NCBI GenBank assembly: GCA_021811105.1
Contig: JAJZPM010000023.1
Span: 1-50,178, forward strand
Source: Nitrospirota bacterium
GTDB taxonomy: Bacteria; Nitrospirota; Thermodesulfovibrionia; Thermodesulfovibrionales; UBA6898
Length of the DNA: 50,178 bases
Reading direction: 5' to 3'
A program made the position numbers and the translations under genes. Positions 16,697 to 22,662 of the stretch are shown piece by piece; the stretch's first letter is position 1, and each line of letters starts with the position of its first letter. The notes beneath the pieces are model-generated. The model made no database searches and was not told the origin of the DNA. It saw only the letters and a program-made list of their open reading frames with translations.

Positions 16697-17236
16697 ATGG
16701 CGGGTAAAAGACGACACAAGAGAATTATTAAGCGCCTCGATACCGAGTTTTCCTCGGAGGGTTCAAGCTTCCGTGGCACGTCCAGCAACCTCTCCGAGGG
16801 CGGCCTCTTTCTAAGAACAACGAAACCGTTACCTACTAACACCCAGGTCGATGTTTGCATTCATCTGCCTGAAAATATTGTCTCAAGGCTTAAGGGCACG
16901 GTCCGTTGGGTCTTAAAGTCTGCGATGAGGACCGGTAGGTCCGGGATGGGGATCGAGATCAGCGAAAATGATCACCATTATGTCAATTTCCTCAACACCT
17001 TGTTGCTCCCCGAGGAGCAGAAACTTTATAAAGAACATGAGAAGGCTGTGCCGGCGTCTCCAGCTGCAAAGATCGAGCACGCCGCCCGTGGGAGGAGCGG
17101 GCCTGTTCCCCGTCCAAAAAGCCCACCCGTTGCCACCCGGAAGAGTGGCCACGAAACGGAAGACAACGAGATCGATTCAATGATCTCCTCGCTATTTTCC
17201 AAACGTCAGAAAAAACAGGGTGAGAGTGAAGAGTAA
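16697..17236 (+). CDS. PilZ-domain protein
   Basis: A 179-aa protein. Residues 1-115 are a PilZ domain with both c-di-GMP-binding elements: the RxxxR motif in KRRHKR (Arg5 and Arg9) and N31-x-S33-x-x-G36 in SNLSEGGLF. The last 60 residues are low complexity and charged and probably disordered. It should bind c-di-GMP and act as a receptor; the target is unknown. No diguanylate cyclase is in the window, though a nucleotide cyclase is present at 43195. It lies 100 bp after tex on the same strand and converges with the Mla lipoprotein gene. Confidence 0.87.
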   Translation: MAGKRRHKRIIKRLDTEFSSEGSSFRGTSSNLSEGGLFLRTTKPLPTNTQVDVCIHLPENIVSRLKGTVRWVLKSAMRTGRSGMGIEISENDHHYVNFLNTLLLPEEQKLYKEHEKAVPASPAAKIEHAARGRSGPVPRPKSPPVATRKSGHETEDNEIDSMISSLFSKRQKKQGESEE

Positions 17237-17258: not shown

Positions 17259-17867
17259 TCATAGCGGATCTTTAAAAGCCCTGGCGATTTCCGCCTTGGC
17301 CTCGTCGATCCCCTCTGCTAAAACACCGCTCATGGCCTCCGCCAGGGCCCGGAAGTCCCGGCCGGCGAGCCTTATTTTCTTCTTGAAATAGCCCCGGTAA
17401 AGCGACTTGCCCTCAGGAGAGGAGAGGTCCAGATCGAAGGCCAGATCTGCGAACGAATCACCGCCGTTGTCGAGTCTTTCGAACTTTTGAAGATAGATTT
17501 CGAGGGAATAGTAGGCAGGAGGAACAAAATTCGAAGCCTTAACCTCCCTGAATAAACCTGTCGCCGATAGAGCATTCCGGAATGAATCCCTTACCATCTC
17601 TGAGGGAGGGGCGTCCCACTTCGAATACCTCGCGATCTCGAGCTGATAAGGCGACGTCCTGAGGGCGATATAGGGCTGGGAGAGATAGCGTGGCGACCGC
17701 ACAACGAGATCGAGTGAAGCGTCCGTCTCTATCTTTGCAGCCGGACCACCATTAGTAAGAGCGAGGCTGTAAATCTTCGTCTGCGGAACCGAGCATGCCG
17801 CAAAGACAGCGGCCAGGACAAACCCAAGAAACACCTTCCGATATGCTCTCCTGTTACTCTCCCTCAA
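17259..17867 (-). CDS. ABC-type transport auxiliary lipoprotein (PqiC/YmbA-like)
   Basis: A 202-aa lipoprotein: a basic start, hydrophobic stretch and lipobox VFAAC place the lipidated residue at Cys25. The mature part matches the ABC_trans_aux family (SVPQTKIYSLALTNG, then LDLVVRSPRYLSQPYIALRT and a SKWDAPPSEMVRDSFRNAL helix), which includes PqiC and the lipoprotein partner of MCE transporters. It likely acts in the periplasm or at the outer membrane with the MlaD protein encoded just upstream. The two frames overlap by 14 bp, so they are coupled. It is the last gene of the Mla locus. Confidence 0.87.
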   Translation of the reverse strand: MRESNRRAYRKVFLGFVLAAVFAACSVPQTKIYSLALTNGGPAAKIETDASLDLVVRSPRYLSQPYIALRTSPYQLEIARYSKWDAPPSEMVRDSFRNALSATGLFREVKASNFVPPAYYSLEIYLQKFERLDNGGDSFADLAFDLDLSSPEGKSLYRGYFKKKIRLAGRDFRALAEAMSGVLAEGIDEAKAEIARAFKDPL

Positions 17868-18756
17868 CTTTCCCCTCCTTATATATGACGCTCCATGGCT
17901 TTTGTTTTACCTCCTGCAGGAGGTCCTGCAGGTCCTCGGCAGTCCTCGTGAGGGTGTCCACCAGGTTGCCGAGACCTGCTGCCTGCTGATCAATCGCCCT
18001 GCCTACGGAGCCAGTCGTTTTTTGGGCCGATCTCGCCGCGGCATCGAGCGACCTGATCATGTCGCCCGCTCTGTCGAGGTCTTCCCTGGCCTTCTTTATC
18101 AAATCGGTGACCTCGGGCTTATTCGTCTTAACCAGGTCTTCGACCTCGCCCAGGACAACTTCAAGTTTGTCGGTCGTGGCCTTCAGGGAGGAGGCGACCT
18201 TCCCGATATTTGCGGAACCGTCTACGACCGCCTTATTGGTGTTGCCGATAAGCCTTTCTATCTCGCCTAAATTCTTCGGACTGAAAAGTCTGTCGACGTC
18301 ATTTACAAGTCCTTCCACGGTCTGAGAAAGACCGTCAAGTCTTGCCATGATCTGCGCAAAGTCCGGCGACTCCTCCGCCGGGATCTCGCCGCCCGGCGTT
18401 ATCCTTCCGTCGGTCGTCTTGTCGACTGCAAGGAGCATGAAAATATCGCCGACAAAACCGTTCTGCGTTATCATCGCCCTCGTTCCATTGTACACGGGCG
18501 TCCCCTGCTTAATGCCGATCTCTATCGTGACCCGCTTGCCGGGTCCGGCCGGCTCCTTGATAGCCGTAACACTGCCGACCCTCACACCTCCCAGCTTCAC
18601 CGGGCTGCCGACTTCGAGCCCCGTGGCGTTCGTTATCTTTACGGTGTATCTGTCGAGCTTCTCGAAAAAATGGCTCCCCCCGATAAGGACCACCAGGGCG
18701 CTGAGGGCAAGAAAAGAAGAGACGACGATTATCCCTGCCTTGATTTCTTCCTTCAC
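17854..18756 (-). CDS. mlaD: MlaD-family MCE-domain protein
   Basis: A 300-aa protein with one N-terminal membrane anchor (residues about 8-27) and a periplasmic MCE domain (about 34-110) with NATGLEVGSPVKLGGVRVGS. The C-terminal 180 residues are helical and longer than in E. coli MlaD (183 aa), as in many non-enterobacterial MCE proteins. MCE proteins form hexameric rings that carry lipids through the periplasm. An open frame begins at 18864, but that would overlap mlaF by about 90 bp. The GTG at 18756 has GGAGG upstream, gives the family-like VKEEIKAGIIV start and leaves a 19-bp gap after mlaF, so it is preferred. Confidence 0.87.
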   Translation of the reverse strand: MKEEIKAGIIVVSSFLALSALVVLIGGSHFFEKLDRYTVKITNATGLEVGSPVKLGGVRVGSVTAIKEPAGPGKRVTIEIGIKQGTPVYNGTRAMITQNGFVGDIFMLLAVDKTTDGRITPGGEIPAEESPDFAQIMARLDGLSQTVEGLVNDVDRLFSPKNLGEIERLIGNTNKAVVDGSANIGKVASSLKATTDKLEVVLGEVEDLVKTNKPEVTDLIKKAREDLDRAGDMIRSLDAAARSAQKTTGSVGRAIDQQAAGLGNLVDTLTRTAEDLQDLLQEVKQKPWSVIYKEGKVEGE

Positions 18757-18775
18757 TCCTCGGCACCTCCAGTCG

Positions 18776-19573
18776 TCAGTCGCCCACGATAAATCTGAAA
18801 TAATCGTCGGGCGAGTAGGTCTTGGTTTCGGGTCTTCTTTCCAGGAACATCCTGACTCTCTCATTTTGAGAGTTTCTCAGGTCGTCCAGTATGCCGGAAA
18901 AGATGACTTCTCCGGCATCGAGCATGATAACATAATCTGCAATCGTGAATACACTGGGCAGTTCATGCGTCACGACGACTATCGTTATCCCGAAAACGTT
19001 TCTGAGCTTTAGTATAAGGTCGTCGAGACCGGCGGCCGTCACCGGATCGAGACCGGCTGAGGGCTCATCAAAGAACAGTAATTCGGGATCCAGCGCGATA
19101 GCGCGGGCGAGTCCCGCCCTTTTCTTCATCCCTCCGGAGAGCTGGGATGGATAAAAATTCTCGAAGCCCGATAGCCCAACGAGATCGAGCTTCATCCGGA
19201 CCATTATCATGACCGTAGACTCATTGAGTCTGGCATGTTCACGTATCGGGAGGGCAACGTTTTCGGCAACGGTCAGAGAATTCAGCAGCGCTGCGCCCTG
19301 AAAGAGCATCCCCATCTTCCTGCGGACCCTGTTCAGTTCCTCCTCATCCATTGCCGCGATGTCTCTGCCGTTGATGGCGATCTTCCCCGCTGTCGGCCTT
19401 AAGAGACCGATGAGGTGTTTCAGGAGCGTACTTTTTCCGCAGCCGCTCCCTCCGAGTATCACGGACGTCTTACCGCGCGGTATGGCTATGCTTATGCCCT
19501 TAAGTATTTCCCTCTGGCCGTAATGGGTCCGGAGACCTGTGACTTCTATCGCATTTTCCATAACCGCGGACAT
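18776..19573 (-). CDS. mlaF: MlaF-type ABC transporter ATP-binding protein
   Basis: A 265-aa ATPase of the Mla lipid transporter. Walker A is GGSGCGKSTLLKH, the signature is LSGGMKKRAGLARAIAL, Walker B is LLFFDEPSAGLDP and the H-loop is VVVTHELPSVF. It should bind MlaE on the cytoplasmic face. Start candidates are GTG 19576, ATG 19573 and ATG 19561; 19573 is chosen because GGAG lies about 11 bases upstream. It is separated from mlaE by about 270 bp containing a palindromic repeat, so the two may be on separate transcripts or the repeat may fine-tune the ratio. Confidence 0.9.
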   Translation of the reverse strand: MSAVMENAIEVTGLRTHYGQREILKGISIAIPRGKTSVILGGSGCGKSTLLKHLIGLLRPTAGKIAINGRDIAAMDEEELNRVRRKMGMLFQGAALLNSLTVAENVALPIREHARLNESTVMIMVRMKLDLVGLSGFENFYPSQLSGGMKKRAGLARAIALDPELLFFDEPSAGLDPVTAAGLDDLILKLRNVFGITIVVVTHELPSVFTIADYVIMLDAGEVIFSGILDDLRNSQNERVRMFLERRPETKTYSPDDYFRFIVGD

Positions 19574-19599
19574 CACCTGAAAATCTCCTCTACCCCCTG

Positions 19600-19760
19600 G
19601 ATCATAACTCCCCTTTTACCCCCTCTTATCTTTTCTCCTCGGCGAATCCGCCTGAGTGCGGAAAGAGGGGGAGAGGCGCCGTGCCTGCCGGCAGGCAGGG
19701 AGCCTGGGGGCGTTACTCCTAAGAGGGGTATAATTCCTCCCCGTGGCAAAAGGATGTCAG
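19600..19760. repeat. GC-rich palindromic intergenic repeat
   Basis: The gap between mlaF and mlaE holds C-runs and G-runs arranged with inverted symmetry (CCCCCTCTTATC on the left, CCTAAGAGGGG on the right) around a perfect GTGCCTGCCGGCAGGCA-like centre. A TAACTCCCC followed by CCCTCTTA also occurs, in reverse complement, at 36262-36345, so this looks like a dispersed repeat family. No coding sequence is supported; the 89-codon minus-strand frame across it is low complexity. Confidence 0.5.
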
Positions 19761-19842
19761 GAGGGATTTTATTAACCCATATATGCACTACCATGAGATT
19801 ATGACATCTTAAACAGTTCAAGCCGTTTGTAACGTGTTTCAT

Positions 19843-20649
19843 CTATGTAAAGTAATAGAACAAGGTCGTAAAGAAAAGATCAAAAACGATTACAAGGAAA
19901 ATGGATGCGACCACCGAAGCCGTGGTCCTCCTGCCCACCTCCTCTGCGCCCCCCTCGACCTTGAAGCCCTGATACGCGCCGACTATCGTAATTACGATGC
20001 CGAAAGCCCACGCCTTCACTAAGCCGGTCATGACGTCTTTCACCAAAAGCGCATTTACCGATTGCTGGAAATAATTGTAGGGGTGGATGCCGATTACCGT
20101 CGTCGAAAGGAGAAACCCCCCGAATATCCCTATCATGTCGGCAAAAACAGTCAGTGCCGGCAGCATGAACATGAGCGCAAGAAGTTTCGGCGTAACAAGG
20201 AACCTCACCGGGTTGATGCCCATCGTGACAAGGGCATCAACCTCTTCGGCCGATTTCATCGAACCTATCTCAGCGGCGAAGGCCGAGCCGCTTCTTCCGG
20301 CGACGATTATCGCGGTCAGTATGGGCCCCAACTCCCTTGTGATCGAGACCCCGACCAGGTTGGCCACGTATATCAGAGCGCCGACCCTCTTGAGCTGATA
20401 CGCCGCCTGCAGGGCAAGGATTATCCCCACAAAAAGCGATATGACCGCAACGATCGGGACAGCGTTATATCCGGCCTTCACGATCTCGGATATGGTCGCT
20501 CTGACCCTGACCGGCTTCCCTTTCACCGGTGATACGAAGGTCCAATAGAAGGCGTCGTTTATTATCTTCGACGCATAATGTACGTCCCTCCCGAAGAGGA
20601 TGACCCGCCGGCCGACAGACCCAAAGAATGCCTCAGTCTTTGACGGCAT
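19843..20649 (-). CDS. mlaE: MlaE-type ABC transporter permease
   Basis: A 268-aa inner-membrane permease with about five membrane segments. Family blocks are visible: VPIVAVISLFVGIILALQAA, then ITRELGPILTAIIVAGRSGS and AFAAEIGSMKSAEEVDALVT. The start codon is taken as the ATG at 20649; the frame opens six bases earlier with TTG. The coding sequence overlaps the end of the upstream STAS gene by 17 bp, which couples their translation. In E. coli the Mla complex contains a STAS-domain subunit, MlaB, that binds MlaF; here the only STAS gene sits just upstream of mlaE. Confidence 0.9.
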   Translation of the reverse strand: MPSKTEAFFGSVGRRVILFGRDVHYASKIINDAFYWTFVSPVKGKPVRVRATISEIVKAGYNAVPIVAVISLFVGIILALQAAYQLKRVGALIYVANLVGVSITRELGPILTAIIVAGRSGSAFAAEIGSMKSAEEVDALVTMGINPVRFLVTPKLLALMFMLPALTVFADMIGIFGGFLLSTTVIGIHPYNYFQQSVNALLVKDVMTGLVKAWAFGIVITIVGAYQGFKVEGGAEEVGRRTTASVVASIFLVIVFDLFFTTLFYYFT

Positions 20650-20962
20650 CGTCAAGGCTACCGCAGATATCGAATACCTTGTCCAGCTTCGAGAAAGCGA
20701 ATATCTCGACGATCCTCTCCGGTATCCCGAAGAGCTTCATTTTCCCGCCGTGTGACATCATACCCCTGAGCCCCTCGACGAGCGTCGCGATCCCGGAGCT
20801 GTCGATATACGAGACGTCTCTGAAATCGACAAGCAACAGGGGGACTTTTTCCCCTATGAAGAAGATCAATTCCTTCCTTAACGCAGGAGACGAATACAGG
20901 TCGATGTCGCCGGACAAGGAAAAAACCTTTGCCCCGTTATGCTCCGTTATATCGATCTTCAT
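20633..20962 (-). CDS. STAS-domain protein (anti-sigma-factor antagonist or MlaB-like)
   Basis: A 109-aa single STAS domain. The phosphorylation site is visible as YIDSSGIATLV; by alignment with SpoIIAA the target Ser is Ser55. It overlaps the RsbW-like gene upstream by 26 bp and mlaE downstream by 17 bp. Two roles are possible: the antagonist in a SpoIIE/RsbW/STAS switch, or an MlaB-type subunit of the lipid transporter. MlaB proteins usually lack a phosphorylatable switch, while this one keeps the DSSG motif, so it might do both. See the finding on this locus. Confidence 0.88.
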   Translation of the reverse strand: MKIDITEHNGAKVFSLSGDIDLYSSPALRKELIFFIGEKVPLLLVDFRDVSYIDSSGIATLVEGLRGMMSHGGKMKLFGIPERIVEIFAFSKLDKVFDICGSLDDAVKD

Positions 20963-21362
20963 CTTTCTCCTTTAGGTATCTGACGAGTCTGAGGCGGTTG
21001 CCTTTTTTCTTCTTCCCGTCAAATTCGAAAATGTCGAAGCACCTCTTGATAAAATGGACGCCGAGACCTCCGGGCCTGACCTCCTCAAGTCTCCTGCCCA
21101 TTATCGCCTCAGGGTCCGCCTTAACGCCGCTGTCTTCAATGACGACTTCGAACCACCCACGGTCGACCTTGTACCGGATAACAATCCGCTTGCGCGCGTC
21201 CCCCCCGTATGCATACTTTATTACATTTGCGCACGCTTCATCAACCGCAAGTTTTAGCTGCTCCACCAGATCTTCATTGATGCCGTGTATATGTCCGACC
21301 TTCGCCGTCACCTCTCTGACAATGCAGAGGTATTTCGGATGAGAAGGTATCTTGACTACCAC
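20937..21362 (-). CDS. Serine-protein kinase / anti-sigma regulatory factor, RsbW-like
   Basis: A 141-aa GHKL-type ATPase of the RsbW/SpoIIAB group. The N-box is LKLAVDEACANVIKYAYGGD, the G1-like motif is VIEDSGVKADPE, and the glycine-rich G2 is RPGGLGVHFIKRCFD. Such proteins phosphorylate a STAS partner and sequester another protein when the partner is phosphorylated. The adjacent phosphatase (14 bp gap upstream) and STAS gene (26-bp overlap downstream) complete a partner-switching module. No sigma-factor gene is adjacent, so its target is unclear. Confidence 0.88.
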   Translation of the reverse strand: MVVKIPSHPKYLCIVREVTAKVGHIHGINEDLVEQLKLAVDEACANVIKYAYGGDARKRIVIRYKVDRGWFEVVIEDSGVKADPEAIMGRRLEEVRPGGLGVHFIKRCFDIFEFDGKKKKGNRLRLVRYLKEKDEDRYNGA

Positions 21363-21375
21363 CGCGCTCTTGATC

Positions 21376-22662
21376 TCAGGCCCCCCATTTAAGTTCCACT
21401 ATCGTCAGATCGTCCGCCCTGTCGCCTCCGCCTGAAAAGTCGTCGGCGAAATCCACGAGCCTCTCGATGAGCTGTTCTTCATGGAGATGTTCCGTCACAA
21501 GCTTCACGACCGCATCGAACCCGAGTCTCTGTCCGTCCCTGTTCTTTGCGTCGAAGAGGCCGTCCGTAAGCAGAATAAGCCTGTCACCCTTGTTTAGCCT
21601 GAATGAGGCAGACGGGTATTCCGACGGAACAATCCCCACAGGAGGGCCGGCCGGAACGGACATGACCCTTACGGTGCTGTCGGACAGCCACAAAAAAGGC
21701 GGATGGCCGGCAACAGAAACATGGCAATTTCCCGTGGAAGTGTCGACGATCATATAAATACCGGTCAGGAACATGCCGCGCGGGGCCCCGGCCAGCGATA
21801 TATTCAACCGGTCCAGTGCCGTCGACGGCGAATCCGCAAGACAGGCGATGTATCTGAAATCGCTGCTCACCTTTGCCATATAAATGGCGGCAGAAACACC
21901 CTTGCCTGAGACATCACCGATGAGGACACCGACCCTTCCCTCCGCCGGTTCCACAAAATCATAGATGTCTCCCCCCACCTTCGCCGCAGAAATGTTCTTC
22001 GCCGAGACAATGAGGTTGCCTTTTCTGAAAACGGGCGATGCGGGCAGAAAGCTCTTTTGGATTGCGGAGGCGATATCGAGCTCCTGCTTCATGCGCTCTC
22101 TCTCGAGGGATTCCTTGTGAAAAAGAGAGTTCTCAATGGCGATTGCGAACTGCCTGCAGAGGAGTTGAAAGATCTCCATATCGTAATCTTTCTTGTGGTT
22201 GATCACCTCTGCGACCCCGATCAGGCCTCCCCTGCCGATAAGCGGGACGGCGATTATGCTTTTTGTCGTGAAACCGGTCAGTTTGTCCGCGTCTCCGTAA
22301 AATCTCTTGTCTGAGCCGACATCGGGGATGACAAGGGGCCTAAGGTTTTGGGCCACCCATCCTGCGATGCCCTGCCCCATTTCAAGGGTAACCTGTTTTT
22401 TCAGCAGCTCTGAAGTTGGACCTTCCTCGCAAAGGGCGACCTCAAACTCGAGTCTGTTCGCGTCTTTGTTATAGAGGAGTATGGAGCAGGCCTCGGCCTC
22501 CATGACCGCCTTCGCCTTCTCCATCACAATAGGGATCAGCTCGCTGAAATCGAGTGTCGAGGAGATTACAGATGAAAGGTCCATCAGCATCTTCAGTGCC
22601 TCGACCTTCTTTTCCATGCCCTTCAGGACTTCGCCGCTTATCTCGGTAGGTTTTTCTCCCAC
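21376..22662 (-). CDS. GAF-SpoIIE (PP2C) serine phosphatase
   Basis: A 428-aa cytoplasmic phosphatase. Residues about 25-170 are a GAF sensor domain (LLYNKDANRLEFEVAL, GQGIAGWVAQNLRPLVIPDV). After a short helix (about 175-195) the SpoIIE/RsbU-type PP2C domain fills 205-425, with metal-binding blocks KVGGDIYDF, GVLIGDVSGKGVSAA and LLTDGLFDAKN, and ADDLTIVELKW at the end. It should dephosphorylate the neighbouring STAS protein in response to the GAF ligand. It is the first gene of the minus-strand locus. Upstream, 22663-22899 has no gene and should contain the promoter. Confidence 0.9.
   Translation of the reverse strand: MGEKPTEISGEVLKGMEKKVEALKMLMDLSSVISSTLDFSELIPIVMEKAKAVMEAEACSILLYNKDANRLEFEVALCEEGPTSELLKKQVTLEMGQGIAGWVAQNLRPLVIPDVGSDKRFYGDADKLTGFTTKSIIAVPLIGRGGLIGVAEVINHKKDYDMEIFQLLCRQFAIAIENSLFHKESLERERMKQELDIASAIQKSFLPASPVFRKGNLIVSAKNISAAKVGGDIYDFVEPAEGRVGVLIGDVSGKGVSAAIYMAKVSSDFRYIACLADSPSTALDRLNISLAGAPRGMFLTGIYMIVDTSTGNCHVSVAGHPPFLWLSDSTVRVMSVPAGPPVGIVPSEYPSASFRLNKGDRLILLTDGLFDAKNRDGQRLGFDAVVKLVTEHLHEEQLIERLVDFADDFSGGGDRADDLTIVELKWGA

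Follow-up and report, generated by a model that had tools for sequence, protein, structure and literature searches.

Can a partner switch have a lipid transporter as its output? The question is raised by seven same-strand genes (22662 to 17259, minus strand) in a 50,178-nucleotide stretch of Nitrospirota DNA (contig JAJZPM010000023.1 of assembly GCA_021811105.1; hereafter the window). Pfam and NCBIfam assign to them, in order, a GAF–SpoIIE phosphatase, an RsbW-like kinase, a STAS protein, the permease MlaE, the ATPase MlaF, an MCE protein and a lipoprotein. Judged from sequence, the operon probably encodes a partner switch with a lipid ATP-binding cassette (ABC) transporter, not a sigma factor, as its output, in which the unphosphorylated STAS protein would join MlaF and the phosphorylated form would not. 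The original prediction, made from the letters of the window, had proposed that the kinase and phosphatase control the use of the STAS protein by the transporter. It is supported by the conserved linkage of the genes, the invariance of the phosphoacceptor serine Ser55, a C-terminal tail on MlaF and the presence of threonine in kinase-less relatives; from these we infer the phosphorylation of Ser55 and the resulting exclusion from MlaF.

The E. coli transporter provides the background. Thr52 of MlaB is placed near the centre of the MlaF–MlaB interface and the Thr52Glu substitution lowers MlaF binding (PMC7367683), while Thr52Ala abolishes ATPase activity (PMC5016091). The regulation of MlaB was described as an open question in 2020 (PMC7367683), and regulation by phosphorylation is raised in both studies as an undemonstrated hypothesis (PMC7367683; PMC5016091). 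Natural candidates for the missing pair of enzymes, a kinase and a phosphatase, are encoded in this operon, the order of which is kept throughout a phylum; the question can therefore be addressed with MlaF and just three proteins that are small and soluble. If our proposal is correct, partner switching reaches beyond transcription and also controls a membrane transporter directly, at the post-translational level. Control of this kind has been suspected by those who study the lipid pump; we know of no earlier identification of enzymes that might exert it.

Conservation of the operon

Relatives of the kinase were sought in 396 Nitrospirota genomes drawn from the phylum, among which related genomes are not independent. 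Of the 60 in which a close relative occurs, 59 have the genes for the kinase, the STAS protein and MlaE contiguous on one strand, and the operon spans 13 GTDB families. Contiguity was read from most of the loci and, for three, obtained by comparing the search coordinates of kinase, STAS and MlaE. Neighbouring genes mostly overlap or are a few tens of bases apart, and the phosphatase gene is directly upstream of the kinase gene in nearly all loci read. When the permease is taken as the starting point, an MlaE of the operon clade (at least 297 bits) is found in 63 genomes; the STAS gene is adjacent in all 63 and the kinase gene in 59, the four kinase-less genomes belonging to one genus, g15. The linkage of the two modules seen in the window is, then, conserved in related genomes, and the conserved order rules out a chance neighbourhood of unrelated genes.

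Several loci depart from the common arrangement. The exception among the 60 kinase-bearing genomes, G378, carries a degraded operon (L116:3748-6137) in which the kinase and STAS genes are followed by the lipoprotein gene; mlaE is missing and the phosphatase gene is fragmented. G034, from family f31 (L123:920-3154), has a response-regulator-like frame between STAS and mlaE, and its kinase bears a 110-residue N-terminal extension. In G154 a second, divergent RsbW and STAS pair with the motif SSAG (L082:185-1020) lies on the opposite strand, within a few kb of the switch that is linked to Mla.

A scan of genome_contigs for the nearest relatives returned only four Nitrospirota metagenome-assembled genomes, and relatives were not found in a scan of viral_contigs. 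When plasmids were queried with kinase, STAS and MlaE combined, no match reached 80% coverage of the query, and those listed lay mainly over its STAS and MlaE parts.

The predicted switch enzymes and phosphoacceptor

The phosphatase (428 residues; 21376–22662, minus strand) combines a GAF domain (PF01590, 9e-17) with a PP2C-type SpoIIE domain (PF07228, 8e-44), in which the metal-ligand residues Asp232, Asp250, Asp367 and Asp417 are kept in at least 56 of 57 sequences. The kinase (141 residues; 20937–21362, minus strand) is an RsbW/SpoIIAB-like HATPase_c_2 serine kinase (PF13581, 1.5e-24), with RsbW models scoring under their curated cut-offs. Invariant in this protein are the N-box residues Glu42 and Asn46, Asp77, and Gly98, Gly99 and Gly101 of the GGLG motif.

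The STAS protein (109 residues; 20633–20962, minus strand; PF01740, 2e-18; TIGR00377 over cut-off) presents Ser55, the first serine of a DSSG motif that begins at Asp54, as the putative phosphoacceptor. The residue is encoded by AGC (20798–20800) and is invariant in all 56 distinct sequences, which bears out the earlier reading that the protein keeps the phosphorylatable serine of switch antagonists. Ser55 aligns with Ser58 of SpoIIAA and with Thr52 of E. coli MlaB; the latter residue, and the MlaF residues discussed below, were checked in the sequence of strain MG1655. Three features of partner switching are present, namely GHKL kinase motifs, a serine at the start of helix α2 in the STAS protein and the SpoIIE/PP2C metal ligands.

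Folding of the STAS protein from the single sequence gave a predicted local distance difference test (pLDDT) score of 43, and from a five-row alignment a score of 92. In the latter model Ser55 opens a helix formed by residues 55–69, and the fold includes two elements absent from MlaB, namely a fifth strand and a helix at the C-terminus. The closest solved folds are those of TM1442, TM1081, RsbV (in complex with RsbW) and SpoIIAA (in complex with SpoIIAB), with Z values of 17–18.5; P. aeruginosa MlaB matches the model with Z = 12.8 over 96 residues. Since the RsbV/SpoIIAA class outscores MlaB, the STAS protein as modelled has the fold of an antagonist in the place of MlaB.

The input domain of the phosphatase varies by family, being GAF in most and a receiver domain in family f32. 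In one f32 genome (L100:3250-4974) the receiver, SpoIIE and RsbW-like kinase parts occupy a single frame of 574 residues, placed directly upstream of STAS–mlaE–mlaF.

The MlaF tail

The MlaF-type ATPase (266 residues; 18776–19576, minus strand) carries the C-terminal handshake extension TYSPDDYFRFIVGD (codons 18779–18820). In E. coli MlaF, Tyr261, Leu265 and Leu266 of this extension are docked in the MlaF–MlaB groove (PMC7367683). The motif in the window reads YSPDDYFRFIVGD, and YSPDDYFRFIV aligns with these three residues. Of the operon MlaF tails, 35 complete ones were examined; each carries the extension, which is of the type aromatic-x3-hydrophobic, with slight variation in f32. The three other MlaF paralogues of the genome, two STAS-less and one with its STAS domain fused to the permease, end before the handshake tail.

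Kinase-less relatives

Two natural comparisons are available. Family f35 has STAS–mlaE–mlaF without kinase or phosphatase, with mlaD and a lipoprotein gene added in the fuller locus. Here the phosphosite is threonine (DTAG), as in E. coli MlaB, and MlaF keeps a handshake-like tail. Genus g15, which is nested within the operon clade in the MlaE tree, has lost kinase and phosphatase; its STAS gene still adjoins mlaE, with the orthologous MlaF encoded elsewhere. The STAS–mlaE adjacency therefore outlives the kinase, which identifies the transporter as the likely partner of the STAS protein. The deep branches of the MlaE tree carry long-branch warnings, so that the absence of the switch from f35 may be either a loss or the original state.

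Proposed mechanism and competing explanations

In our model the STAS protein takes the place of MlaB on MlaF. The RsbW-like kinase would bind the unphosphorylated STAS protein and phosphorylate Ser55, which is predicted at the N-terminus of helix α2, the element at the centre of the MlaF–MlaB interface in E. coli; kinase and MlaF would then compete for the same helix. As to the direction of control, with the kinase dominant the phosphorylated STAS protein would leave both kinase and MlaF, and the transporter, lacking its activating subunit, would be off because phospho-STAS would no longer dock on MlaF. A presumed signal at the GAF domain, or at the receiver domain in one family, would lead SpoIIE to dephosphorylate the STAS protein, which would return to MlaF and turn lipid transport on.

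Several observations weigh against this model. The conserved gene order implies a functional link and does not give the mechanism, and the kinase may bind MlaF directly. The STAS sequence is nearer to RsbV than to MlaB. The association of threonine with the absence of a kinase draws on two f35 loci and the known MlaBs only, and the g15 protein keeps serine despite loss of the operon kinase, so that serine and kinase do not always go together. Finally, the Thr52Ala variant of E. coli MlaB binds MlaF yet is inactive, and the site may therefore matter for ATPase coupling and not just for binding.

The kinase might itself be the inhibitor, an 'anti-transporter factor' bound to MlaF (or MlaE) until removed by the unphosphorylated STAS protein, which would then be an antagonist and no subunit. 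This is the classical RsbW/RsbV wiring, in which RsbW sits on sigma B, and the STAS sequence and predicted fold are nearest to RsbV and TM1442. Nevertheless, we judge it unlikely: MlaF retains the tail that docks at the E. coli MlaF–MlaB groove, the STAS gene stays beside mlaE in g15, and f35 retains a free STAS protein with the transporter. The kinase-less relatives can also be read in another way, with the STAS protein as a constitutive MlaB subunit, the two enzymes vestigial or directed at some other target, and Ser55 structural. The serine retained in g15 favours this arrangement, as does E. coli, where MlaB requires Thr52 and no kinase for MlaB is known. However, the catalytic residues of both enzymes are kept across 13 families and so the enzymes do not appear vestigial, and kinase-less f35 has threonine, not serine; we regard a constitutive subunit as quite improbable.

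The switch might instead act on transcription, through a sigma factor or another distant target, with the transporter genes a co-regulated neighbour or members of the regulon. Characterized RsbW/SpoIIE/STAS modules do mostly target sigma factors, and this genome encodes RpoD-like factors and FliA. No SigB/F/G-type sigma factor scored over cut-off in the genome, however, and the five factors examined are four RpoD-like proteins and FliA; a sigma-factor switch is for this reason the less likely assignment. A sigma partner of non-classical type may nevertheless exist. The linkage to mlaE in 13 families, with overlapping frames, and the survival of STAS–mlaE linkage after loss of the kinase also speak against an output in transcription, which we consider very improbable.

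We return to a switch that acts through the STAS subunit of the transporter. On balance, and with somewhat less assurance than for the switch proposed for this operon, we favour the view that a dedicated serine kinase and phosphatase form a widespread switch that toggles an ABC transporter by phosphorylating its STAS subunit reversibly, the ATPase standing in the place of the sigma factor and sensory input being passed to lipid transport by a general route.

Organization of the locus and type of transporter

The order, single strand, coordinates and overlaps originally given for the seven genes are correct by Pfam, NCBIfam and the coordinates themselves. Kinase and STAS genes share 26 bp (20937–20962). 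The MlaE-family lipid ABC permease (270 residues; 19843–20655, minus strand; PF02405, 1.7e-77; TIGR00056 over cut-off) has an ATG start at 20649, from which the overlap with the STAS gene is 17 bp; from an upstream TTG it is 23 bp. The repeat reported in the gap between the two transporter genes mlaE and mlaF is confirmed: a dispersed element, with no assigned strand, fills all 266 bp of this gap (19577–19842) and is matched in part at about 50 other places in the genome. It is missing from most orthologous loci, and in most orthologues the gap is far shorter.

Downstream of mlaF is the gene for the MCE (MlaD-like) protein (about 300 residues; 17854–18756, minus strand; PF02470, 2.6e-14; TIGR00996 at 83 bits, under cut-off), which has a long C-terminal part and a start placed by comparison with orthologues. 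The last gene encodes an ABC-type transport auxiliary lipoprotein of PqiC type (202 residues; 17259–17867, minus strand; PF03886, 4e-13). Directly beyond it, in convergent orientation, a small putative PilZ-like (cyclic di-GMP) protein is encoded at 16697–17236.

Neither MlaA nor MlaC is encoded in the operon. Because both are missing and the operon ends with a PqiC/ABC_trans_aux lipoprotein, the transporter, on its gene content, is a Mla–Pqi chimera rather than canonical Mla. The original label of Mla is to be corrected accordingly. A canonical Mla pathway was rejected, with the equivalog models under cut-off, a lipoprotein of PqiC type and MlaA at another locus, where it adjoins a different mlaEF pair that is without STAS.

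The STAS protein had been described as the only one; this is wrong, as five further places in the genome match, among them an N-terminal STAS domain in fusion with a different MlaE permease. No other free-standing STAS protein of the genome adjoins a Mla-type transporter. A separate free-standing mlaB, which would have counted against the earlier reading, was not found in the genome, where there is only the STAS domain fused to a paralogous permease. In the fused paralogue the phosphosite position is occupied by aspartate (WDSG), an assignment that is alignment-dependent. This fusion belongs to a paralogous operon of Mpc type in the same genome (L033:4855-8446), whose MlaF is without the handshake tail. 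Elsewhere in the genome (L035:3628-5283) a gene that overlaps one for a STAS protein and lies ahead of a GAF/HD-GYP-like gene encodes a 551-residue protein, apparently with an ATPase part at its N-terminus and with HATPase_c_2 as its C-terminal domain; these genes form a second, unrelated candidate switch.

Comparison with known systems

A search of open-licence papers for MlaE with RsbW or SpoIIE, or for partner switching with lipid transport, found no description of such a system. Both halves of the operon are of kinds already known and what is new is their combination.

With E. coli MlaFEDB (Kolich 2020, PMC7367683; Thong 2016, PMC5016091) the operon shares a STAS protein beside MlaF and MlaE, a phosphosite in which Ser55 corresponds to MlaB Thr52, and the MlaF handshake extension. 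The E. coli system, in contrast, works with MlaC and MlaA, has threonine at this site and includes no kinase or phosphatase of its own. Here there is a complete STAS fold, a serine acceptor and two enzyme genes ahead in the operon. The transporter resembles Brucella Mpc, a Mla–Pqi chimera (PMC12436622), more than it does canonical Mla, and Mpc is the nearest described relative: MlaE and MlaF types, a long MlaD, a PqiC-like lipoprotein and an operon without MlaC or MlaA are common to both. In Mpc, however, STAS domain and permease form one fused protein, and the four-gene operon includes neither kinase nor phosphatase (PMC12436622).

The switch half matches RsbU/RsbV/RsbW and SpoIIE/SpoIIAA/SpoIIAB, with the same three protein classes encoded side by side and the kinase motifs, DSSG and SpoIIE ligands kept. 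The difference is that no sigma factor is co-encoded and that the output genes specify a lipid transporter. STAS outputs without a known sigma factor have been reviewed, for example SypA, the target of which is unknown (PMC8256260). Our model shares with SypA/SypE the principle that the output is the STAS protein in its unphosphorylated form; it differs in that the linked candidate target is an ABC ATPase with a known mode of STAS binding.

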